This document shows positions 15,053-22,894 of a stretch of DNA of 22,894 bases, piece by piece (the stretch's first letter is position 1; the number at the start of each line of letters is the position of its first letter). The notes under the pieces were generated by a model, which had not been told where the DNA came from, did not search any database, and saw only the letters and a program-made list of their open reading frames with translations. A program made the translations under genes and the position numbers. Source of the DNA: Candidatus Tectimicrobiota bacterium (GTDB lineage Bacteria; JACPSX01); assembly GCA_016193065.1 (NCBI GenBank), contig JACPSX010000255.1:1-22894 (forward strand). The letters are read 5' to 3'.

Positions 15053-15226
15053 GTCCCCTCGATACCCCGTCCCATCACGTGAAGCTGGGTCCCGGGGGCA
15101 TCTAATCCCAACTGTCTGGGCGTGCCTTCTCATTCCCCCAAGGAGGTGAACCTGCCAAGTTCATTCAGAAACAACGTCCCTTCGCGCGCGGGAACATCAC
15201 AAAGCTATTTTTAAGCCTGACCCTTT
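15053..15226 (-). mobile_element. Element copy A: decayed RAYT-derived miniature element
   Basis: This is the right part of the element seen seven times in the island. On the minus strand it starts with the inner end of the terminal repeat (GAAACAACGTCCC on the plus strand, 15168-15180). It then shows the transposase start with the initiation codon changed to ACG, followed by residues like PRQLGLDAPG and VMGRGIEG. The opposite terminal repeat is missing. A shared outer flank (CGCGCGGGAACATC, then AAGCCTGACCC) extends to 15226. Confidence 0.7.
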
Positions 15227-15273
15227 CTTTCTTTTGCTTTCTTGCTGGAGCCAGTTGTTAGAATCAGATATGG

Positions 15274-15498
15274 TCAAGACGCCTTTTCCAGACGCTCTGC
15301 GACCCAGACTTTGATAATGGCTTGGCGAGGCACACCCAAACGTTTAGCCTCTTTGTCCAATAAGTGAACCATCCACAGAGGAAAATCTACATTCACTCTC
15401 TTTTGCTCTTGCCCCGGCCTCCTTGCTTTTGACATATCAAGATATTTGGAAATATCCTCACCCTCGTCAAACTTCTTATCAAATTCACGCGCTTTCAT
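15274..15498 (-). CDS. brnA: BrnA-like / ribbon-helix-helix antitoxin
   Basis: This is a 74-residue protein. The N-terminal half is charged and would wrap the toxin. The C-terminal half (KRVNVDFPLWMVHLLDKEA, then LGVPRQAIIKVWVAERL) is a ribbon-helix-helix DNA-binding unit. It follows the BrnT gene with a 14-nt overlap, the usual toxin-first order for brnTA. The ATG at 15498 has AGGAGG 9 nt upstream; a TTG 9 nt earlier is rejected. As a BrnA-type antitoxin it would neutralise BrnT and repress the shared promoter at 15758-15785. No truncation is seen, so this module looks intact. Confidence 0.85.
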   Translation of the reverse strand: MKAREFDKKFDEGEDISKYLDMSKARRPGQEQKRVNVDFPLWMVHLLDKEAKRLGVPRQAIIKVWVAERLEKAS

Positions 15499-15748
15499 AT
15501 ATATCAACCTCCTCCTTTCGCGACCGCCTCACGGAAATAATTCTTATCTTTTCCCCCCGATGCGTTACGACTCCTGACCAGTATCTTCCTTCGATCTTGC
15601 CGATTACTATGAATCGCGGTTCATCGCTGGTTTTCGCAGGAATCTCCATGAAATCAGGATCGTCCCAAAGCGCCTGGGCTTCATAGAAATCAATACCGTG
15701 TTTTGTCTTATTGGCTTGGCTTTTCTTAGGATCGAACTCAAATTCCAT
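15485..15748 (-). CDS. brnT: BrnT-family toxin (type II toxin-antitoxin)
   Basis: 87 residues, normal length. BrnT features are visible: FEFDPKKSQANKTKHGIDF at the start, a middle EPRFIVIGKIEGRYWSGVV strand pair and the closing RIISVRRSRKEEVDIYE. BrnT is a RelE-fold ribonuclease that blocks translation when free of BrnA. There is no ribosome binding site before the ATG at 15748. The -10 box ends only 9 nt upstream, so the message is probably leaderless or nearly so. It is followed by the overlapping antitoxin. Base composition is more AT-rich than in the left half of the window, in keeping with acquisition from elsewhere. Confidence 0.88.
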   Translation of the reverse strand: MEFEFDPKKSQANKTKHGIDFYEAQALWDDPDFMEIPAKTSDEPRFIVIGKIEGRYWSGVVTHRGEKIRIISVRRSRKEEVDIYESA

Positions 15749-15749
15749 C

Positions 15750-15785
15750 GTATAATTACTATACCTTTTATATACCAGTAGTCAA
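15750..15785 (-). promoter_or_regulatory. brnTA promoter with overlapping inverted-repeat operator
   Basis: On the minus strand TTGACT (15780-15785) is followed after 16 nt by TATAGT (15758-15763). GTATA and TATAC form an inverted repeat around 5 nt at 15750-15764, covering the -10 box, where a dimeric antitoxin could bind. The -10 lies 9 nt from the ATG. Confidence 0.55.
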
Positions 15786-15952
15786 CCTGCTAAATTCTTT
15801 TCTAACATATTCAAGGATGGAGCAACACGGTTACGGATCGTAATGACGGCAAAGGATCAGTCAGGCAGGTGGATGGAAAACGAGAAGGTCAGCGAAAAAT
15901 AATCAGGTTCAGAGAGGCAGCACTACCGTGAAGCGGTTTCGTTCAACGTGAA

Positions 15953-16282
15953 TTAGGCAGTAGCTTGCTGCTGCCTTTGTTTCCGCTGCTGAAGCCATCG
16001 CTCGAATGAGGCAGCATTTTCTGCGGACTTTTTGCCAAGCAACAATCCCTCAACACCGATATCCTCGTCGGGATCAGGCCAATGGATCCCGTAGCCTGCG
16101 CCGTTGATCTGAAGATTGGCGCGCTCGGCTGGTGTGCCCTGGGCCAGACGTGGATGCCAGCCGATGGGAACAGAGATCGTGCGCCCGTCTTCGAGATCTA
16201 CGGACAGGGAATTTTCTGTAACCATCACGCTCACAACTCTAGTCAGTGTGAGTGTAACCGCCGCAGAATGCATCCCATTCAT
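15953..16282 (-). CDS. DUF2442 domain protein
   Basis: Up to 109 residues. The DUF2442 core is clear: SLSVDLEDGRTISVPIGWHP, then TPAERANLQI and IHWPDPDEDIGVEGLL. The family has no proven function, but its genes usually follow a DUF4160 gene and behave like toxin-antitoxin partners. Here the start lies inside the remnant of such a DUF4160 gene, as in intact pairs. The exact start is uncertain among several ATG codons between 16282 and 16225. The C-terminus is Gln/Arg-rich (RWLQQRKQRQQQ). The stretch between its stop and the brnT promoter (about 165 nt) holds nothing I recognise. Confidence 0.82.
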   Translation of the reverse strand: MNGMHSAAVTLTLTRVVSVMVTENSLSVDLEDGRTISVPIGWHPRLAQGTPAERANLQINGAGYGIHWPDPDEDIGVEGLLLGKKSAENAASFERWLQQRKQRQQQATA

Positions 16283-16375
16283 TTCTCAGGACCTCCAGAT
16301 TCTCACGGATAACGCGCTCAATGTCGCGCAACTCCTTGCGAGTATGGCGAGTTGATAAAACAGCCTCCTTCTTGG
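16239..16375 (-). pseudogene. DUF4160 gene remnant, N-terminus replaced by element copy B
   Basis: The minus-strand frame ending at the TAG at 16239 reads LSTRHTRKELRDIERVIREN and then LRNEWDAFCGG. This matches the C-terminal helix of DUF4160 proteins. The upstream part that should carry the DUF4160 beta domain is absent, and the frame runs directly into element copy B. The partner DUF2442 gene is intact and overlaps it. I infer that insertion of, or recombination at, the element removed the 5' two thirds of the gene. Confidence 0.6.
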
Positions 16376-16380
16376 AGAAC

Positions 16381-16529
16381 GGGGCTGGGTCCCGGGGGCA
16401 TCCAACATCGACTGTGTGGGCATGCCCTTTCATTACCCCACCCCAAGGAGGTGAACCTATCAAGTTCATTCAGAAACAACATCCCGTCGCGCTGCAAACA
16501 TCGAAAAGCTATTGTGCAAGCCTGACTGT
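16381..16529 (-). mobile_element. Element copy B: decayed RAYT-derived miniature element
   Basis: On the minus strand the inner terminal repeat (GAAACAACATCCC on the plus strand, 16473-16485) is followed by the transposase start MPTQSMLDAPGTQP, where homology stops at the junction with the DUF4160 remnant. The other terminal repeat is missing. The shared outer flank with AAAGCTATTGTGCAAGCCTG runs to about 16529. Confidence 0.7.
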
Positions 16530-16591
16530 ATGCCACTCCTCTTTGTAAACGCCAGCTAGACGCGTCCTTTTCCACTGTGGTCCAAGACAGT

Positions 16592-16850
16592 CTATTTGCC
16601 ACTAGCCAAGATCGCGCTCAGGGCAGATTTGATCGCTTCAAGCGGTTCCTGCTTGAGAACGCCAACCTCTGCTACTATGAGAGCCGAATTTGCCGTGAAC
16701 AGTTTTGACGGACGGACATAGCTCTCGATTCGCAGAGACCCAGACCGAAAGCTTTCGTCGGTCAAGCGAATCGCGTGAGGATCGCCGTACGGATTGCTGG
16801 TGATCTGACAGAGGATCCAGTCGTCACGTCCCGCCTCGGCGAGGACAGGA
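16592..16850 (-). pseudogene. MazF/PemK-family toxin lacking its N-terminus
   Basis: The minus-strand frame ending at the TAG at 16592 reads PVLAEAGRDDWILCQITSN, then PHAIRLTDESFRSGSLRIES, YVRPSKLFT and a closing EAIKSALSAIL. This is a MazF/PemK endoribonuclease core. The expected start (a GDVVLVPFPF-type segment and the following RPALV, about 25-30 residues) is missing. The frame has no start codon before it runs into the antitoxin gene. A deletion at the antitoxin-toxin junction explains this best. The stretch 16530-16591 holds nothing recognised. Confidence 0.72.
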
Positions 16851-17072
16851 CTACCGCTCCCGCTGCAGATGGGACCATGCAGCGTCCTCCTCGGGTCGGT
16901 TCCAGTCCTGCGCCAGTGCGGGTTCGCTCAGAAGGGACGACTCGTGGACACCAGCGTCGGCGGGATCATCGAGGATCATCACAAAGGCACGACGCGTGCC
17001 CAGCAGCTTGACCGACTCGAGGAGGCGAACGTTACCTTGCTCGTCAACTACGGCTTCGATCGCTCTAACCAT
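16851..17072 (-). CDS. Antitoxin of a MazF/PemK-type module
   Basis: 73 residues. The N-terminus (MVRAIEAVVDEQGNVRLLE) is the beta-strand start of small AbrB-like or DUF2281-like antitoxins. The C-terminus (LAQDWNRPEEDAAWSHLQ) is the acidic toxin-binding tail commonly seen ahead of MazF/PemK toxins. The ATG at 17072 has AGGAGG 7 nt upstream and a TATAAT -10 box at 17090-17095. It immediately precedes the truncated toxin at 16592-16850. It appears intact, so the cell may keep an antitoxin without its own toxin. Family name is uncertain; role by context is likely. Confidence 0.75.
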   Translation of the reverse strand: MVRAIEAVVDEQGNVRLLESVKLLGTRRAFVMILDDPADAGVHESSLLSEPALAQDWNRPEEDAAWSHLQRER

Positions 17073-17089
17073 GAGGCGCCTCCTGACAC

Positions 17090-17108
17090 ATTATACCATA
17101 GCATGGTA
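17090..17108 (-). promoter_or_regulatory. Antitoxin promoter and palindromic operator
   Basis: TACCAT and ATGGTA form a perfect 6-bp inverted repeat around AGC (17094-17108). It overlaps a minus-strand -10 box TATAAT (17090-17095) for the antitoxin gene. This is the usual arrangement for antitoxin self-repression. No clear -35 box is seen, and element copy C begins only 14 nt further upstream. Confidence 0.55.
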
Positions 17109-17122
17109 AGCGCGAAGGAAAA

Positions 17123-17328
17123 GGGGGACGTTGTTGCCGGGTGCACGACCTTCGTCCCCTCGATACCCTGTCCCATTACGTGATGCAGCGTCCCGGGGGC
17201 ATTCAATCTCGACTGCCTGGGCATGCCCTCTCATTACTCCAAGGACGTGGACCCGTCAAGTTCATTCAGAAACAACGTCCCCTCGCGCCCGGGAACATCA
17301 AAAAGCCATTTTGCAAGCCTGATCCTTT
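17123..17328 (-). mobile_element. Element copy C: RAYT-derived miniature element with both ends
   Basis: A nearly complete copy of about 160 bp. The plus-strand left end is GGGGGACGTTGTTGCCGGG (17123 on) and the right end GAAACAACGTCCCC closes near 17282. Between them the minus strand reads MPRQSRLNAPGTLHHVMGQ, then GIEGTKVVHP. This is the first ~25 codons of a RAYT transposase joined directly to the terminal repeat. The shared outer flank (CGGGAACATC, then TTTTGCAAGCCTG) continues to 17328. It separates the MazF-type antitoxin promoter from abiE. Confidence 0.8.
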
Positions 17329-17411
17329 CCAGACCCTTTTCCTGGCACTCAAAAACAGCTCGATAAATCTATCGCGGATTCTTACAATCAACTTTATAAT
17401 TTGCAACCGAA

Positions 17412-18218
17412 ATGAAAAGGCGATCTTCCCTCACGGCCGGCCAGTTTATCGAAGAGCTCCTGGGGCAGGGACGCTACACGTTCGCCCGGGAGGAGGCAGA
17501 GCGACGCCTCGGAACGTCGCAGGCGGCCGCCTACATGACCCTGCACCGCCTGGTCAAGGCGGGTCGCTTGGTCATGCCCCGGTCCGGGTTCTACGTCATC
17601 GTGGACCCGCAGCACCGCGCCGCCGGTACCTTGCCCCCGGAGTGGTTCATCCACGAGCTCGTGAAGGGCATGGGAAGGCCTTACTATGTCGGCCTGCTGT
17701 CGGCTGCCCAGATACACGGCGCGGCGCACCACCGCCCTCAGGAGTTCCAGGTTGTGATCCCGACGCGGACCATCCGGCCGATCCGCGTGGGGAACGTGCG
17801 GATCCGCTTCTTCGGCAAAGGGCCGTTCGACTGCTCCGAGACGGTCGAGGTCAAGACACCCACGGGCTTCCAGAAAGTGTCTACGCCCGAGACCACGGCC
17901 TGGGACTTGGTCCGCTATCCCAGAGCCGCCGGGGGCCTCGGGAATGTGGTCACGGTGCTCTCCGAACTGGAGGAGCACCTGGACGTGGCCAAACTCCGCA
18001 AAACGGTCAGGCGGCACGATGATCTCCTTGTGGCGCAACGACTGGGCTACCTGCTCGACCAGCTAAGCCGCAGGGACCTCACCAGGGGACTGGCTGACTG
18101 GGTCCAGAAGGAGGACGCCCCACTCCGTCCTCTAGATCCGGCCTTGCCCGTCGCGCGGGGCTCGGAGAGCCGGAAGTGGCACCTCGTGATCAACGCTGAG
18201 CTGGAGCCCGAGGCGTGA
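17412..18218 (+). CDS. abiEi: AbiEi antitoxin (type IV toxin-antitoxin)
   Basis: 268 residues. An N-terminal winged helix (LTAGQFIEELLGQGRYTFAR, then LGTSQAAAYMTLHRLVKAGR) binds DNA. The AbiEi antitoxin domain follows, with PRSGFYVIVDP and YYVGLLSAAQIHGAAHHRP as family markers. AbiEi counteracts the AbiEii nucleotidyltransferase without direct toxin binding and represses its own operon. There is no ribosome binding site, and a TATAAT at 17395-17400 ends 11 nt before the ATG at 17412, so a very short leader is likely. The length is complete. Its TGA overlaps the GTG start of abiEii, the normal arrangement. Confidence 0.9.
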   Translation: MKRRSSLTAGQFIEELLGQGRYTFAREEAERRLGTSQAAAYMTLHRLVKAGRLVMPRSGFYVIVDPQHRAAGTLPPEWFIHELVKGMGRPYYVGLLSAAQIHGAAHHRPQEFQVVIPTRTIRPIRVGNVRIRFFGKGPFDCSETVEVKTPTGFQKVSTPETTAWDLVRYPRAAGGLGNVVTVLSELEEHLDVAKLRKTVRRHDDLLVAQRLGYLLDQLSRRDLTRGLADWVQKEDAPLRPLDPALPVARGSESRKWHLVINAELEPEA

Positions 18219-18754
18219 TCCCCCAGGCCGCCATCACCCACTGGCGGAACGTGGCACCCTGGCCCCAGGATGCGCAGGTCGAGCAGGACCTTATCCTCTG
18301 CCGCGCCCTGATCGAGATCTTCCGGGACACAGATCTCTCCAGGCGCGTAATTCTCCGAGGCGGCACGGCCCTGTATAAGCTCTACGCGCCCGCCCCGCTG
18401 CGCTACTCCGATGACATTGACCTGGTCCAGCACGCACCCGAGCCCATCGGATCCCTTTTAGACGGCCTCCGGTCACGGCTCGACCGGATCCTGGGGACTC
18501 CACGGCGGGAGAACAATCCCGATAACGTGACCCTGCGCTACCGCATGGAGTCCGAAATCCCGCCGGTGGTGCCCCTGCGTCTCAAGATCGAGATCAACAC
18601 CCGGGAGCACTTTGACGTGTACGGAGTGGTCGTGCGTCCCTTGGCTGTTCGGTCGCCCTGGTTCAATCTCGCCTCCCGCCCGTTCAATGATGATCTGCGG
18701 CTGTGTGAGCCCTTCCCCCCATTTCCCCAAAAGCAAGGGCATGTAGCCCGATAG
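18215..18754 (+). pseudogene. abiEii: AbiEii nucleotidyltransferase toxin, C-terminally truncated
   Basis: The GTG at 18215 overlaps the AbiEi stop. Residues 1 to about 155 are a good AbiEii: VILRGGTALYKLY (45-57) and LRYSDDIDLV (62-71) give the G-G and D-x-D metal and nucleotide site. After SPWF (about residue 153) the expected C-terminal helical part with the TKLRALYQRRKGRD-type motif is absent. An unrelated tail (FNDDLRLCEPFPPFPQKQG) runs to the stop. The family is usually about 230-300 residues; this is 179. Element copy D starts 28 nt after the stop. The loss of about 100 residues probably inactivates the toxin. Confidence 0.78.
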
Positions 18755-18782
18755 CGGCCAGTCCCTTCGTCGGTAGCGAACA

Positions 18783-18927
18783 GGGGGAGGTTGTTTCCGG
18801 GTGGACGGCCTTCCTTCCCTCGATACCCCGTCACATCAGTCAGAAGGAAGTGGAAGATTATCTCGGCATGCACTACTCGACGGTGAGTAAGCTTTTAGCA
18901 GTGCCAAGATCCAAGGACCTGACCCTA
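18783..18927. mobile_element. Element copy D: chimeric RAYT remnant
   Basis: Positions 18783 to about 18838 are the left end of the element (GGGGGAGGTTGTTTCCGGG and, on the minus strand, RGIEGRKAVHPETTSP). At about 18839 it switches to a plus-strand coding fragment, QKEVEDYLGMHYSTVSKLL. This resembles the C-terminal helix-turn-helix of RAYT-type transposases, and it ends in a GGACCTGACCCT flank. The two pieces are in opposite orientation, so this is a rearranged copy or two overlapping remnants. Confidence 0.6.
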
Positions 18928-18940
18928 TGACTTCTATGAC

Positions 18941-19423
18941 TTGCTGCTTCGGGTCCCTTTGGAAACCTTGACCGACCGGGAGCTCTGTGAGCTTGCTATT
19001 GCCGAAGCTGTTGACCTCACCGCTTGTGCCCGGGAGGAAATGCCAGGCATGTACGTAGTGCACGACAGAAGGGCGCTCGTGGCTAGGCTCCAAGAGCGCC
19101 GCGAGAAAGTGCGAGCTGCACGGTCAGATAGAAAGGCCACCATTGCTCTGTGGCTGTCACTTCTCAGCCTCGCTGCCGCCGTTGCGAACACCATGATCAA
19201 CGTGTTTGCTCAAGTACCTCGCAGGCAAGTGAGGGATCCGGGTATACCTTACTTAATTTGTTACCCTCCTTGCTTCCATCGGGCCTGGCTTCTGCCACCT
19301 CAGTGTCCGCTCTACGACCAGCTCCAGCATCCAATCTGGACTTTCTGGGCAAGGGCTCTCTTTACCCCCGAGGAAGTGAACCTTGGAAGTTCATTCAGAA
19401 ACAACGTCCCCTATCGCTGGTGA
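18941..19423 (+). CDS. Unassigned, probably chimeric ORF with one membrane helix
   Basis: I do not recognise this protein. It begins with a TTG and no ribosome binding site directly after the RAYT remnant, so the 5' end may be lost. Residues about 5-80 are charged (TLTDRELCELAIAEAVDL, then RALVARLQERREK). A membrane segment follows (about 68-92, LWLSLLSLAAAVANTMINVF). From about residue 97 the frame runs through non-homologous sequence into element copy E, so the last third is not native. It is best seen as the remains of a small membrane protein. Confidence that it is expressed is low. Confidence 0.3.
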   Translation: MLLRVPLETLTDRELCELAIAEAVDLTACAREEMPGMYVVHDRRALVARLQERREKVRAARSDRKATIALWLSLLSLAAAVANTMINVFAQVPRRQVRDPGIPYLICYPPCFHRAWLLPPQCPLYDQLQHPIWTFWARALFTPEEVNLGSSFRNNVPYRW

Positions 19424-19530
19424 CGTCCCCTATGGCTGGCCCAGCGCATTGCCAGCGCGGGCAGGCCAGAGGCGAATCCATTCTCCAAGCAGCAAAAAGC
19501 AATTATGCAAGCCTTCTCTGACCCTTCCCT
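19327..19530 (-). mobile_element. Element copy E: decayed RAYT-derived miniature element, right end
   Basis: Positions 19327-19411 match the right part of the element, including the minus-strand transposase start region and the end GAAACAACGTCCCC. The left part is absent. A variant of the outer flank, AAAAAGCAATTATGCAAGCC, lies around 19494-19515, separated by about 80 nt of extra sequence. The remaining stretch to 19570 shows nothing else. Confidence 0.6.
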
Positions 19531-19570
19531 GCTTCCTGCTGTGGGTTAGGCGCCTCCACCTTTTGACTGT

Positions 19571-20092
19571 TCATGGAAAGAACTTTGCAAACTCCTCGAG
19601 GTCTTTGGCGAATGTCGGATCGGCACGGCTTTTCCGTTTTGCGTCGATAACCGAATAATGAAGTCGGAAGAACGTCCGCGCTTCGCTGCCAAAGAACGCC
19701 TTCGCGGTTGCTGCATCACAAATATCGCTGCGTACGCAAATTTGCAGAACGCCAAAAAAGTCGATGACGGCAAGGACGTCACTCGTCAGCTTCTCATTTT
19801 TTACAACAGTGCGAACAAAACTCACCCATTGATCTGTTCGTAACTTGGGATCATCAAGAAGCGCATCCATTCGTGCTTCGTATTTGAGCCAAGCGTTTGT
19901 TATTCGTTGCCAGCTGTCATATGTTGGTGGTTTATGGAACCTCTCGACGAAGGACAGACTTTCCTTTACGCGGTCGGCTTTTTCTTTTTCCAAGTACTGG
20001 TATCCTGCAAATATTCCTCCAATGAGGGCCCCTATCACCGTAACAGCTATGCCAACTATTTCAGTGATGGTTTTCCATTCGTCAAGTTTCAT
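19571..20092 (-). CDS. Hypothetical membrane-anchored protein
   Basis: 173 residues from the ATG at 20092, which has AGGGG about 6 nt upstream; the longer start at 20110 is poorly placed. A short amphipathic start (MKLDEWKTITEIVG) leads into one membrane helix (about 13-35, rich in Gly/Ala/Ile). A cytoplasmic helical domain with many Lys, Asp and Phe residues follows (for example SLSFVERFHKPPTYDSWQRI and DVLAVIDFFGVLQICV). The overall design recalls DUF4760-like bacterial proteins of unknown role, but I cannot assign a family. It follows the secreted Lys/Pro-rich protein by 8 nt, so the two are almost certainly co-transcribed and may act together. Confidence 0.65.
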   Translation of the reverse strand: MKLDEWKTITEIVGIAVTVIGALIGGIFAGYQYLEKEKADRVKESLSFVERFHKPPTYDSWQRITNAWLKYEARMDALLDDPKLRTDQWVSFVRTVVKNEKLTSDVLAVIDFFGVLQICVRSDICDAATAKAFFGSEARTFFRLHYSVIDAKRKSRADPTFAKDLEEFAKFFP

Positions 20093-20100
20093 AGCATCCC

Positions 20101-20373
20101 CTATTTGCATCCTGGGAGATCGGGCTTCTTGAGACAGGGATCAGGTAGTTGTAGGACGTCCGGAGGCATTGGCTTATCCTTCGAGGGAAATTCCGGCTTC
20201 TCCTTTGAAGGAGGCTCCTTTCCCTTTTCGGGGAGTGCTTTCTCAGGAGCGCTTTTTCGGGGCGATTCGATTACAGGCCTGTCCTTGGAAGGCTTCTCCT
20301 GGGCATAGGAGGCCGTTGGGGTGACGATAAACATTCCAACCACACAAGCAAGAATAGCCAACCGCAGTTCCAT
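20101..20373 (-). CDS. Small secreted Lys/Pro-rich protein
   Basis: 90 residues. The ATG at 20373 has GGGTGA about 7 nt upstream. An earlier start would add 20 residues ahead of a typical signal peptide and is rejected. The signal peptide is MELRLAILACVVGMFI and so on, with a likely cleavage site after ASYA. The mature part is low-complexity and charged, with imperfect repeats of the kind EKGKEPPSKEKPEFPSKDKP. It ends in PDPCLKKPDLPGCK with two cysteines that could form a disulfide. No function is known. It leads the two-gene unit with the membrane protein downstream. Confidence 0.65.
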   Translation of the reverse strand: MELRLAILACVVGMFIVTPTASYAQEKPSKDRPVIESPRKSAPEKALPEKGKEPPSKEKPEFPSKDKPMPPDVLQLPDPCLKKPDLPGCK

Positions 20374-20462
20374 TTCGTTGTCACCCCCGGGTTTCAGGTT
20401 TCCAGGTCCGACAGCAAGGAGGGCTCCTGGCAATCCATAAGTAAGCGCCTCACGGGACGAAA

Positions 20463-20734
20463 GGGGAACGTTGTTTCCGGGTGAACTGAAAGATATCGCT
20501 CAGGACCCAGAAGACCATCGGATCGAGCCGCCCGGACAACCGCGGAGGCCGTCACGCCTGGAAACCGAGCCACCTGTGCTCCAGGATACCCCATCTTGCC
20601 TAACTTCCCTCGATACTCCGTGCCATCACGCGATGCAGGGTCCCAAGGGCATCCCCAATCTCGACTGTCTGGGCATGTCCTCTCATTATCCCAAGGAGGT
20701 GAACCTATCAAGTTCATTCAGAAACAACGTCCCC
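20463..20734 (-). mobile_element. Element copy F: RAYT gene with internal deletion, both ends present
   Basis: The longest copy (272 bp). The left end GGGGAACGTTGTTTCCGGG and right end GAAACAACGTCCCC are inverted repeats. On the minus strand the transposase start MPRQSRLG (with a 1-nt insertion after it) leads to VMARSIEG. Then a join follows to LGKMGYPGAQVARFPGVTAS and AVVRAARSDGL, the C-terminal helix-turn-helix of RAYT transposases. The whole catalytic middle (HUH and tyrosine motifs) is missing. This shows the origin of the family. Confidence 0.85.
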
Positions 20735-20750
20735 TATCGCGCGCCGACAA

Positions 20751-20899
20751 TTCAATTCCTTCCCCCCGGGTACCCTCTGGGTGCGGGGAAGGGCGGGATG
20801 GGGGTGTTCTTCCAAATCAGAGCGGAATCACTTCCAGAAACGATCTCGTTGCTATAGCGAAGAGTTTTTCGTCAACGGAGTTTTCTGCTCTTGACAGCC
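20751..20899. repeat. Second repeat family (R2), copy 1
   Basis: CAATTCCTTCCCC with a GGGGAAGG partner (20785-20792) is followed by GGATGGGGGTGTTCTTCCAA and AGAGTTTTTCGT, ending near GACAGCC. It matches 21921-22082 over about 150 bp with several differences. It lies directly after copy F, separated by about 17 nt. No gene is evident in 20735-20931. Confidence 0.75.
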
Positions 20900-20931
20900 C
20901 GTGGCCTCATAGGTGGCTGGAGTGCCACCGC

Positions 20932-21165
20932 TTATGGCTTGGAGCGGCCTGGTAGTGCCGAGATCACGGAGCGCAGTAGGGTGTTGACGGACTCCGACGA
21001 CTCGAAGACCTCTGCGACGTCCGGATCAAGAACAACCGCGATCGTCCCAGCTCCCATCTGAGCGGCAAAGCGGTTGGGTTTGGCCTTCGTGTAATCGAAG
21101 CGATATTCCCGACGCATCTCTTCGGAAAGAACCGGCGATTTCTTACGAGCTGACGTTTTCTTCAT
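20932..21165 (-). CDS. Antitoxin partner of the second BrnT toxin
   Basis: 77 residues from the ATG at 21165. The N-terminus is very basic (MKKTSARKKSPVLSEEMRRE), followed by YRFDYTKAKPNRFA, a segment typical of antitoxins encoded after BrnT genes. The C-terminal half (TIAVVLDPDVAEVFESSESV, then LLRSVISALPG) is the likely DNA-binding or dimer part. It overlaps the toxin gene by 23 nt. AGGAGGG lies about 14 nt before this ATG; a longer start at 21201 is possible. It differs clearly from the BrnA at 15274-15498, so the two modules are not recent duplicates. Confidence 0.8.
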   Translation of the reverse strand: MKKTSARKKSPVLSEEMRREYRFDYTKAKPNRFAAQMGAGTIAVVLDPDVAEVFESSESVNTLLRSVISALPGRSKP

Positions 21166-21430
21166 AGTCCTGGCGTTCCCTCCTTGTCGCTTTCCGTGCA
21201 CTAAAGATGCGGATCGACGCTCCCCGAGCGGTGAAGCATACTAACAGCAGACGATGCTGCGTCGAATGTCCAATGATGATTTCGCGCTCTTCCTCACTTG
21301 AGTGATCCTCGTCGTCGAAGATGCGGGCGAGAGGATCCGAAAAGGCCGTGAGACCCTCTTCAAATGAGACGCCATGCTTCGCGAGGTTTGCGGCAGCCTT
21401 CTTTGGATCCCATTCGAAGCGTAAACTCAT
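21143..21430 (-). CDS. brnT: BrnT-family toxin, second copy
   Basis: 95 residues. It starts RFEWDPKKAAANLAKHGVSF, has the middle REIIIGHSTQHRLLLVCFT strand pair and closes with RIFSARKATRRERQDYEE, all BrnT hallmarks. It is a RelE-like ribonuclease in the family's known cases. It shares the general plan of the BrnT at 15485-15748 but differs through most of its length, so it was acquired separately. The ribosome binding site before the ATG at 21430 is weak. The downstream antitoxin overlaps it, so the pair looks complete and probably working. Confidence 0.88.
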   Translation of the reverse strand: MSLRFEWDPKKAAANLAKHGVSFEEGLTAFSDPLARIFDDEDHSSEEEREIIIGHSTQHRLLLVCFTARGASIRIFSARKATRRERQDYEENVSS

Positions 21431-21591
21431 TGCCAGTTTGAAATCCTACCGCCTCTGTGAAAACTTTCAAGCTCTCCGAGCGGGACGGTTGAAGACACTC
21501 TATTGAGTATACTGGTCTGCATAGCACGGTTGCCGAAACTTCCCACAACAGCCATGATTCTCTTGCCTTTCCAAGGAGTTGTCAAGGCATC

Positions 21592-21690
21592 TTACCCTTC
21601 GTCTCCTGCCGAAATACCCCACACGACGTGTAGCGGCTGCCCCTCGTGATCATGTTGTAGAACCAGAACACACGGTCCCTTCGAAATCAT
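21592..21690 (-). pseudogene. Possible DUF4258-type toxin remnant
   Basis: On the minus strand the frame ending at the TAA at 21592 reads SMISKGPCVLVLQHDHEGQP and then LHVVWGISAGDEG. The order of a cysteine-containing strand, an acidic turn and then PLHVVWGI is like the C-terminal part of DUF4258 proteins, which often sit beside a YgiT-type antitoxin. The rest of the domain and the TAYRPDP-type end are missing. The match is short, so this is tentative. The other parts of 21431-21769 hold nothing recognised. Confidence 0.35.
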
Positions 21691-21769
21691 GCTCACTGAG
21701 ACCCCTTCCCGAGCATCCCGCTTGGTAAACCCAGGTCGATCCCAATAATCTTTAGGGAGCAGACCTCAT

Positions 21770-21907
21770 ATGAGATTTTACACCAAACAGCACCTACAAT
21801 ACTGCGGAATCCCTCTGCGCGCCCAGGCCGTGTACGTCTGCATCCCGGACCAGGAGGGCGAGATGGAGTTCCATAGAAACATGCCAGACAGCCGCAGTTT
21901 TGACTAG
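21770..21907 (+). pseudogene. IS110-family transposase fragment
   Basis: 45 residues starting MRFYTKQHLQYCGIPLRAQA and continuing VYVCIPDQEGEMEFHRNM before a stop. This resembles the start of IS110/IS1111-type transposases, where the segment CGIDLHART carries the first catalytic aspartate. Here the aspartate is replaced by proline (CGIPLRAQ), and the rest of the roughly 400-residue enzyme is absent. It is a dead fragment next to repeat R2 copy 2. Confidence 0.65.
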
Positions 21908-21920
21908 GCTCGGAATCGGC

Positions 21921-22082
21921 TCAATTCCTTCCCCCTCGATGGGGGAAGGTGTGCAGACCGGAGTCAAGGGTAAGGGCAGGATGGGGGTGTTCTTCCAAGT
22001 CAGAGCGGAATTACCCCCAGGATTGAGGTCGTCTTCGAGGCGAGGAGTTTTTCGTTCAGGGAGTTTTCTGCGTTTGAAAGCC
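21921..22082. repeat. Second repeat family (R2), copy 2
   Basis: It opens with a perfect 9-bp hairpin, CCTTCCCCC (21927-21935) and GGGGGAAGG (21941-21949). GGATGGGGGTGTTCTTCCAA and GAGTTTTTCGTTCAGGGAG follow, matching 20751-20899. It abuts the left end of element copy G (22099). So R2 lies just right of copy F and just left of copy G. Confidence 0.75.
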
Positions 22083-22098
22083 GGAATCCTTGCGGAAA

Positions 22099-22257
22099 GG
22101 GGGACGTTGTTTCCGGGTGGACGACCTTCGTCCCCTCGATACCCTTTCCCATCACGTGATGCAGGGTCCCGAAGGCATCCAATCTTGACTTTCTGGGCAT
22201 GCCCTCTCATTACCCCTAAGGAACGCAACCTGTCAAGTTCATTCAGAAATAACGGCC
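22099..22257 (-). mobile_element. Element copy G: RAYT-derived miniature element with both ends
   Basis: About 159 bp. The left end GGGGGACGTTGTTTCCGGG is near perfect; the right end GAAATAACGGCC has drifted. The minus strand reads MPRKSRLDAFGTLHHVMGKG, then IEGTKVVHPETTSPF. This is the best-preserved transposase N-terminus of all copies, joined directly to the terminal repeat. The frame continues into R2 and stops near 22000. The stretch 22258-22431 downstream shows no gene that I recognise. Confidence 0.82.
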
Positions 22258-22431
22258 TCTGTCCTTCCCGGGCTGTTGAGTTACACCCCTCCCCGGAGGG
22301 ATACCCCTGCGCTTCACCACATCCGGTCGCCCGGATGCAGCGGGAGCCCGCTACATGGCTCTCTGGTGATTACCACGACCGGACTTCCACTGGTACGTTG
22401 TCAGTGCCTTTCAGGGCAAATGAATGCGTTG

Positions 22432-22894
22432 CTAGGTTGCCGGCCCACTATCCACTAGCCTCCATATGGCTTCCGAGTCGACATTGAATGTGACTAGCAA
22501 GTCAAGAAGCTCCCGAATTCGCGAGTACACCCCGTTCTCCCTGGTCCTAAGCGGAAACCGAATAGGACGAACACCCAAGATTTCCAAATCACGATCGAAT
22601 AGACTTCGGAACATCGCGTCTCGCTCAACCTCGTCGATCGATCGCGGCAAGAACGCAAAGTGCCTGTGCGACGACACTGGTCGCCCGAGTCGAAGAAAAC
22701 GTCGGACGTTGGGATCGGTCATCGAGCTGCCGACGAACACGCACGTCGATTGGGACAGGTATCCAATCAAGATGACGTCGGGCCACGCGTAAGGCGTGCG
22801 GGAGTGTTGGAAGTAGTCATCTTCCCCAAGGACGAGCTGGGTCACAGGGCCACCACCAAGCCTGAGATAGCCGTGCGGGTGTACAACGGGTAGC
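22432..22894 (-). CDS. SIR2-like domain protein (partial, N-terminus off the right edge)
   Basis: The frame is open to the window edge (16 more codons upstream of the GTG at 22845), so the gene starts outside. Visible parts are VVHPHGYL, then QLVLGEDDYF, YAWPDVILIGYLSQSTCVFV and GSSMTDPNVRRFLRL. This is the pattern of SIR2_2-type proteins: an HG motif, an acidic EDDY segment, and a GSSxxDPN segment at the end of the Rossmann fold. A C-terminal extension of about 85 residues follows. SIR2-like proteins of this kind often act as NAD-consuming effectors in anti-phage systems; that role here is inferred from family and island context only. About 153 residues are visible. Confidence 0.78.
   Translation of the reverse strand, partial: LPVVHPHGYLRLGGGPVTQLVLGEDDYFQHSRTPYAWPDVILIGYLSQSTCVFVGSSMTDPNVRRFLRLGRPVSSHRHFAFLPRSIDEVERDAMFRSLFDRDLEILGVRPIRFPLRTRENGVYSRIRELLDLLVTFNVDSEAIWRLVDSGPAT

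Follow-up and report, generated by a model that had tools for sequence, protein, structure and literature searches.

What kind of repeat separates one small gene module from the next in an accessory island of a Candidatus Tectimicrobiota bacterium, and does it delimit cassettes? The window analyzed here, the whole 22,894 nt of contig JACPSX010000255.1 (assembly GCA_016193065.1; contig C233 of genome G000 below), holds seven copies (A to G) of a short repeat, family F1, interspersed with toxin-antitoxin (TA) and other small genes. The initial annotation took the repeat for a miniature element derived from a RAYT (a tyrosine transposase associated with repetitive extragenic palindromes, REPs) and for the seam between modules. 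Judging by their sequences, we assign the F1 copies to the non-autonomous miniature inverted-repeat transposable elements (MITEs) derived from a Y1 transposon of TIRYT/TIRtron type, as new members of a known group. We consider it probable, with some reservation, that they are old relics that built up alongside TA modules, both sharing the same accessory islands.

Copies of the F1 element and their parent transposon

A DNA search of the whole genome (294 contigs) with copy C as the query gave 15 matches (E = 3e-86 to 5e-3), all confined to four contigs (C233, C207, C73, and C292); a second F1 query added further short ends, again on these four. Clustering this strong was equalled in 0 of 20,000 random draws, and the even genome-wide scatter that would have spoken against a link with accessory islands was not seen. 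The seven window copies lie at the annotated starts, and their similarity is far beyond chance, but only three of them, C (17124-17282, complete short type), F (20464-20734, complete long type), and G (22100-22258, end approximate; short type, right end decayed), span both ends. The left end is absent from A (15053-15181) and from the long-type copy B (16343-16486, start approximate), D (18784-18838) is a short-type left stub, and E (19327-19411) is a right stub; this pair may stem from a single disrupted copy. F1 copies are 76-91% identical across the right 100 nt, and complete elements start with GGGGACGTTGTTTCCGGGTGGAC and finish with GTTCATTCAGAAACAACGTCCCC, with minor variants.

As annotated, the copies retain the first codons of a transposase: the minus strand of F1 reads MPRQSRL(N/D)APGTLHHVMGxGIEGTKV, a transposase N-terminus. 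The C-terminus of the same transposase was also retained in copy F and in both C73 copies (C73a and C73b), which identifies the miniature forms as products of internal deletion; the copies fall into at least three structural classes. Two elements of Thermodesulfobacteriota Yes70-24 (G060; C136:2634-2985 and C376:6738-7089), an unrelated genome, are independent deletion derivatives of this transposase, in which approximately aa 48 is joined to aa 266. The transposase remnants of all window copies are on the minus strand, as the initial annotation had stated, and in each of the 4 islands the F1 pieces (15 in total) all point one way (chance 2^-11). When treated as single-stranded DNA, copy C folded, by pairing of its inverted ends, into a single long hairpin (z = -3.2; 0 of 200 shuffles were as stable). 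The F1 copies are short and non-coding, have inverted ends, and have a related autonomous element, as MITEs do.

The F1 copies originated from a full-length transposon. This parent was located in a pattern scan that took one genome per species; it is a 1,076-bp element (L036:4593-5668) of Deltaproteobacteria bin55 (CP070704) with both F1 ends and a single gene of 332 aa. Its termini are paired as an inverted repeat at 25 of 26 bases, and the N- and C-termini of its transposase match those retained in the F1 MITEs. The protein scored 43.3 bits against Pfam Y1_Tnp (PF01797; cut-off 23) and carries an HUH motif of the HFH/HVH type that is conserved among homologues. A C-terminal helix-turn-helix (HTH) is suggested by matches to Bac_DnaA_C (E = 0.0018 for the parent, E = 0.00035 for its relative on contig C158) and HTH_23 (E = 0.013), all below the curated cut-offs. 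Single parent ends folded no better than shuffles, and no sequence relative of the parent was found in the PDB at E values up to 1. The larger transposase copy expected elsewhere in G000 was found at the start of C158: it is 66% identical to the parent, is cut by the contig end, contains an in-frame TAG, and is followed by an antitoxin-like open reading frame (ORF) and a ParE toxin.

Derivation from a RAYT-like Y1 transposase stands, but TIRYT/TIRtron fits better than RAYT. TIRYTs are described as RAYT-like transposases lying between terminal inverted repeats (TIRs) and not REPs (Di Nocera et al. 2013, PMC3733652). A later classification (Quentin et al. 2018, PMC6006769) mostly equates them with TnpA_REP subclass 2.1, in which the C-terminal extension is similar to Bac_DnaA_C, HTH_23, or HTH_28; they correspond to RAYT group 1 of Bertels et al. 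(2017, as cited in that work). The F1 parent likewise combines a Y1/HUH transposase with a DnaA-like C-terminal HTH and long TIRs instead of REPs, and families of TIR repeats occur in the genome. The TIR motif GGGGWSAS, given in the published TIRYT descriptions for some but not all members, is fitted by the ends of two sister families, F2 (GGGGTCAG) and F3 (GGGGACAC), whereas F1 (GGGGACGT) deviates at two positions. The elements studied here have TA neighborhoods and form compound F1/F2 MITEs, neither of which is mentioned in the TIRYT/TIRtron descriptions consulted.

Like the RAYT/REPIN system (Bertels and Rainey 2011, PMC3116915), F1 is a non-autonomous, doublet-like derivative of a related tyrosine transposase, and the element can fold as one long hairpin. 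Unlike that system, F1 has few copies, which are clustered in islands. Strict REP/REPIN identity was rejected: the ends have neither a GTAG/GTGG tag nor a hairpin of their own, and the parent scored 61.2 bits against the NCBIfam REP-associated tyrosine transposase model NF047646, under its cut-off of 80.

Searches of phages and plasmids with the F1 element or the N-terminal peptide gave no match, and neither did pattern scans of viral contigs. Among 59 genomes drawn as relatives (nearly all related at the level of the same domain only), a copy was present in the window's own genome alone.

Association with toxin-antitoxin genes

TA genes were found beside F1 on every F1-bearing contig of G000 and beside the transposase on C158, five contigs in all. 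Near F1, C233 carries BrnTA twice, AbiEi/AbiEii, and a PemK remnant; C207 carries PemK; C73 carries ParE and Unstab_antitox; and C292 carries BrnT, an orphan CcdA, and a DUF433/DUF5615 pair, which we take to be TA-like. The CcdA antitoxin of C292 (L032:3170-3592; PF07362, E = 8e-27) is followed by a HAD-type gene, and no CcdB was seen adjoining it.

Because toxins are common in G000, four families (BrnT, ParE, PIN, and PemK) were counted over the entire genome, with proximity defined as within 1 kb of an F1 element. Near F1 were 7 of the 50 toxin matches of G000, against 0.42 expected (24 kb covered; approximately 17-fold; binomial 2e-7), and 4 of the 41 of G060, against 0.25 expected (approximately 16-fold; binomial 1e-4); these binomial values are indicative only, because the G000 copies are clustered, one PemK match is below the cut-off, and three of the families were picked after inspection of the islands. 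Nearly all G060 sites are on separate contigs, so clustering cannot account for the link in that genome. Matches of 50 small ORFs beside F1 in G060 covered 13 families, among them PIN, nucleotidyltransferase, HepT, PemK, HicA, and DUF2442, whereas 96 small ORFs from random contigs of G000 and G060 (approximately 190 kb) matched 15 Pfam families, none of them TA.

Could the apparent islands be an artefact of assembly or binning that joined unrelated repeats? G000 is a draft metagenome-assembled genome of 294 contigs, and several of the contigs with elements terminate near copies. However, the copies vary in sequence and length, backbone genes run on into the C233 island, and neighbors of the same kind occur in an independent genome. 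We regard this explanation as very improbable.

TA neighbors were not found everywhere. The intact element of bin55 and a second copy in that genome have none, and none was present at the end-pattern sites examined in G061 and G062. A scan of the phylum with up to 2 mismatches placed approximately 3 of approximately 13 plausible intergenic sites near a PIN or nucleotidyltransferase gene (L184, L199, and L202), in a noisy sample in which 25 of 395 genomes matched, against approximately 14 in the reversed control, and many single matches fell inside coding genes. Sister family F2, outside the islands, is adjoined by VapBC on C199 and by PemK on C131; its copies at C48 and C188:3587 had no TA neighbor. 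TA proximity is thus real in two genomes, is common to sister elements, and is not obligatory. The proposed link between copies and accessory modules holds on the five G000 contigs and again in G060, but in other genomes the element often lacks a TA neighbor. The more economical explanation of the proximity is that both share permissive accessory DNA.

Nested sister elements and shared seams

On the right, the F1 copies A, B, C, E, and C73b and one on C292 are followed by a second conserved stretch, which ends in AAGCCTGACCC and represents the terminus of F2 (GGGGTCAGGCTTGCATAATTG). F2 is also present on C48, C131, C188, and C199; the sequence adjoining F2 on those contigs reads, in our own reading and not by a family match, like the C-terminus of a Y1 transposase. 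In the window, the F2 remnant extends to approximately 15224 after A, 16526 after B, 17323 after C, and, in a longer form, 19516 after E. One F1/F2 joint is common to five copies, which indicates that the compound relic itself was multiplied.

The third family, F3 (GGGGACACCTTACTTAATTT type), occurs with its Y1 gene at C67:70-857; a derivative at C207:20443-20807 arose by internal deletion, joining C67 positions 70-256 to 682-857. An F3 terminus remnant (19237-19328) is fused to E (88% identical to C207:20447-20537 and 78% to C67:74-163), and a C-terminal stub resembling another, fourth Y1 transposase (SQKEVEDYLGMHYSTVSKLL...; 18838-18930, plus strand), read directly and with a weak HTH match only, is fused to D. 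Repeat R2 (AGCGGAATCACTTCC...GGCGAAGAGTTTTTCGTCAACGGAGTTTTC) is present twice in the window (20785-20899 and 21968-22082) and 6 or 7 times elsewhere, mostly in the same islands. Its other sites are on C73, C207, C292 (twice), C196 (twice), and C164, and on C196 it lies near HigBA and a HicB-like gene. A further dispersed repeat of these islands (21500-21600) recurs at C73:987-1087 (89%) and C73:4699-4780 (90%). With F1, F2, F3, and the fourth Y1 stub combined, the island is a nest of several related relics and not one clean repeat.

Some of these seams are shared between islands. Copy F and the first R2 copy form one compound seam (20464-20899) that is collinear (80-87%) with C73:1264-1776; past it, the TA pairs differ (BrnTA on C233, ParE/Unstab_antitox on C73), with the stop codon 13-33 bp beyond. 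Likewise, IS110-like debris (21692-21921), the second R2 copy, and the left end of G are in the same order at C233 21692-22122 and C292 4896-4450. Pfam gave no confirmation of the IS110 debris annotated at 21770-21907.

Such seams raise the question of whether homologous recombination between near-identical repeats, acting as homology arms, shuffles TA modules so that islands swap contents. The F1/F2 joint common to five copies, the C233/C292 collinearity, and the same seam (long F1 MITE, approximately 50 nt, R2) standing before BrnTA on C233 and ParE/Unstab_antitox on C73 speak for such exchange. Yet the seams are just 80-91% identical over 100-350 bp, which makes them poor substrates for recent recombination, and no TA module is common to the islands at the DNA level. 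The copies also belong to different internal-deletion classes, the half-copies D and E do not match each other as reciprocal products, and the modules are damaged at the seams, which looks like accretion and decay. We consider shuffling by recombination unlikely.

Genes between the copies

Different small modules occupy most of the gaps, as annotated. A to B holds BrnA (15274-15507, minus; NCBIfam NF047399, E = 1.3e-38, above cut-off), BrnT (15485-15748, minus; PF04365, E = 6.9e-27), and a DUF2442 protein (15953-16282, minus; PF10387, E = 4.8e-21). Cut at the edge of B is the 3′ remnant of a small gene (16240-16342, minus), read directly and with no Pfam match; it looks like the C-terminus of DUF4160, with which DUF2442 is usually paired, by resemblance and not by a family match. 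B to C holds a PemK/MazF toxin remnant (16607-16822, minus; PF02452, E = 7.7e-4, below the curated cut-off). C to D holds AbiEi (17412-18218, plus; PF09407, E = 1.7e-35) and an AbiEii toxin that has lost its 3′ part beside D (18215-18754, plus; PF08843, E = 8.1e-14; 179 aa, covering profile positions 6-127 of 238). The D to E interval departs from the annotated pattern: it consists of debris of other Y1 transposases and has no TA module. E to F holds a DUF4760 membrane-type protein (19571-20110, minus; PF15956, E = 1.2e-9) and a small ORF. F to G holds a second BrnT (21143-21430, minus; PF04365, E = 5.5e-28) and a BrnA-like antitoxin (20932-21201, minus), assigned by position only (it overlaps the BrnT gene) and with no family match. 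A SIR2-like domain protein fragment (22432-22845, minus; PF13289, E = 1.3e-6) lies beyond G. At approximately 15000, G+C drops from approximately 0.60 (backbone) to 0.50 where the island starts.

Because the window TA modules sit between like-oriented ends, a TIRYT transposase might move segments between two element ends with TA pairs as passengers. The damaged C158 transposase, with its antitoxin-like ORF and ParE toxin, and the recurrence of the TA association in G060 fit such transport. Nevertheless, most G060 sites are one element beside one TA locus and not a flanking pair, G000 yielded no duplicated unit of TA plus element, and the C158 transposase has an internal stop; co-mobilization seems to us rather improbable.

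The array look of the island (similar spacing, one orientation, and a different small module in most gaps) could also suggest a site-specific cassette system of the integron or dif kind. The transposon ends and transposase codons, however, fully explain the repeat, and we give this alternative next to no credence. Integron attC identity was rejected: six copies were tested for the R''/R' pair (RYYYAAC/GTTRRRY), and none has it at its ends; C73a and C73b each hold a single RYYYAAC match well inside the end.

Discussion

A dedicated cassette system with the element as its seam is not supported. The copies are old and vary in structure, several have been reduced to half-copies, the modules are truncated at the seams, and a TA neighbor is often absent elsewhere. 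Integron cassettes are a known system in which repeats delimit TA cassettes. Chromosomal integron arrays resemble the island in having small modules, including TA genes, between like-oriented repeats, but the repeats tested here lack attC core sites. The pdif (dif) modules of Acinetobacter plasmids (PMC6449649) also place TA and other small modules between repeated sites; those are Xer recombination sites acted on by XerCD, with documented shuffling, whereas the repeats here are transposon relics. The initial remark that no named system was known in which such elements delimit TA cassettes overlooks these two precedents.

Under the reading that we favor, accretion and decay of relics, full-length elements would have inserted into the very accessory islands where TA modules were also building up; the elements would have lost their middle parts by several routes and become nested with or fused to sister TIRYT elements. 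TA loci resist loss and insertions are tolerated in such DNA, which may be why the islands have persisted. The TA modules would be neither carried nor actively exchanged by the elements; the elements, or deletions ending there, would instead erode the modules at the seams. The related IS200/IS605 transposases act on the lagging-strand template, which gives an orientation bias (PMC6006769). By analogy, the bias may extend to TIRYTs, and insertion through single-stranded, lagging-strand DNA would account for the single orientation within each island. Local duplication giving rise to several copies would also yield a single orientation.

Two observations weigh against relic accretion and decay. 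Similar compound seams adjoin different TA modules (copy F with R2 precedes BrnTA on C233 and ParE/antitoxin on C73), which fits module exchange too, and simple co-accumulation alone does not predict an approximately 16-fold TA enrichment in two unrelated genomes. TIRYTs and TA modules might instead be functionally coupled: the transposase would target or carry TA loci, or TA addiction would shelter the elements, and recombination at compound seams would swap TA modules in a slow, integron-like exchange without an integrase. We consider such coupling unlikely.

No paper on an association of RAYTs or TIRYTs with TA systems was found in the open-access literature searched, and the association of TIRYT-type elements with TA genes, unreported in the open-access papers searched, is a worthwhile lead. 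TIRYTs are a little-studied branch of the Y1 transposases, for which a full-length parent, several deletion derivatives, and compound MITEs provide useful anatomy. TA proximity in two unrelated genomes offers a concrete, testable lead to the growth and decay of chromosomal TA islands. If the proximity reflected targeting or carriage and not shared permissive DNA, it would represent a new route for the movement of TA modules.

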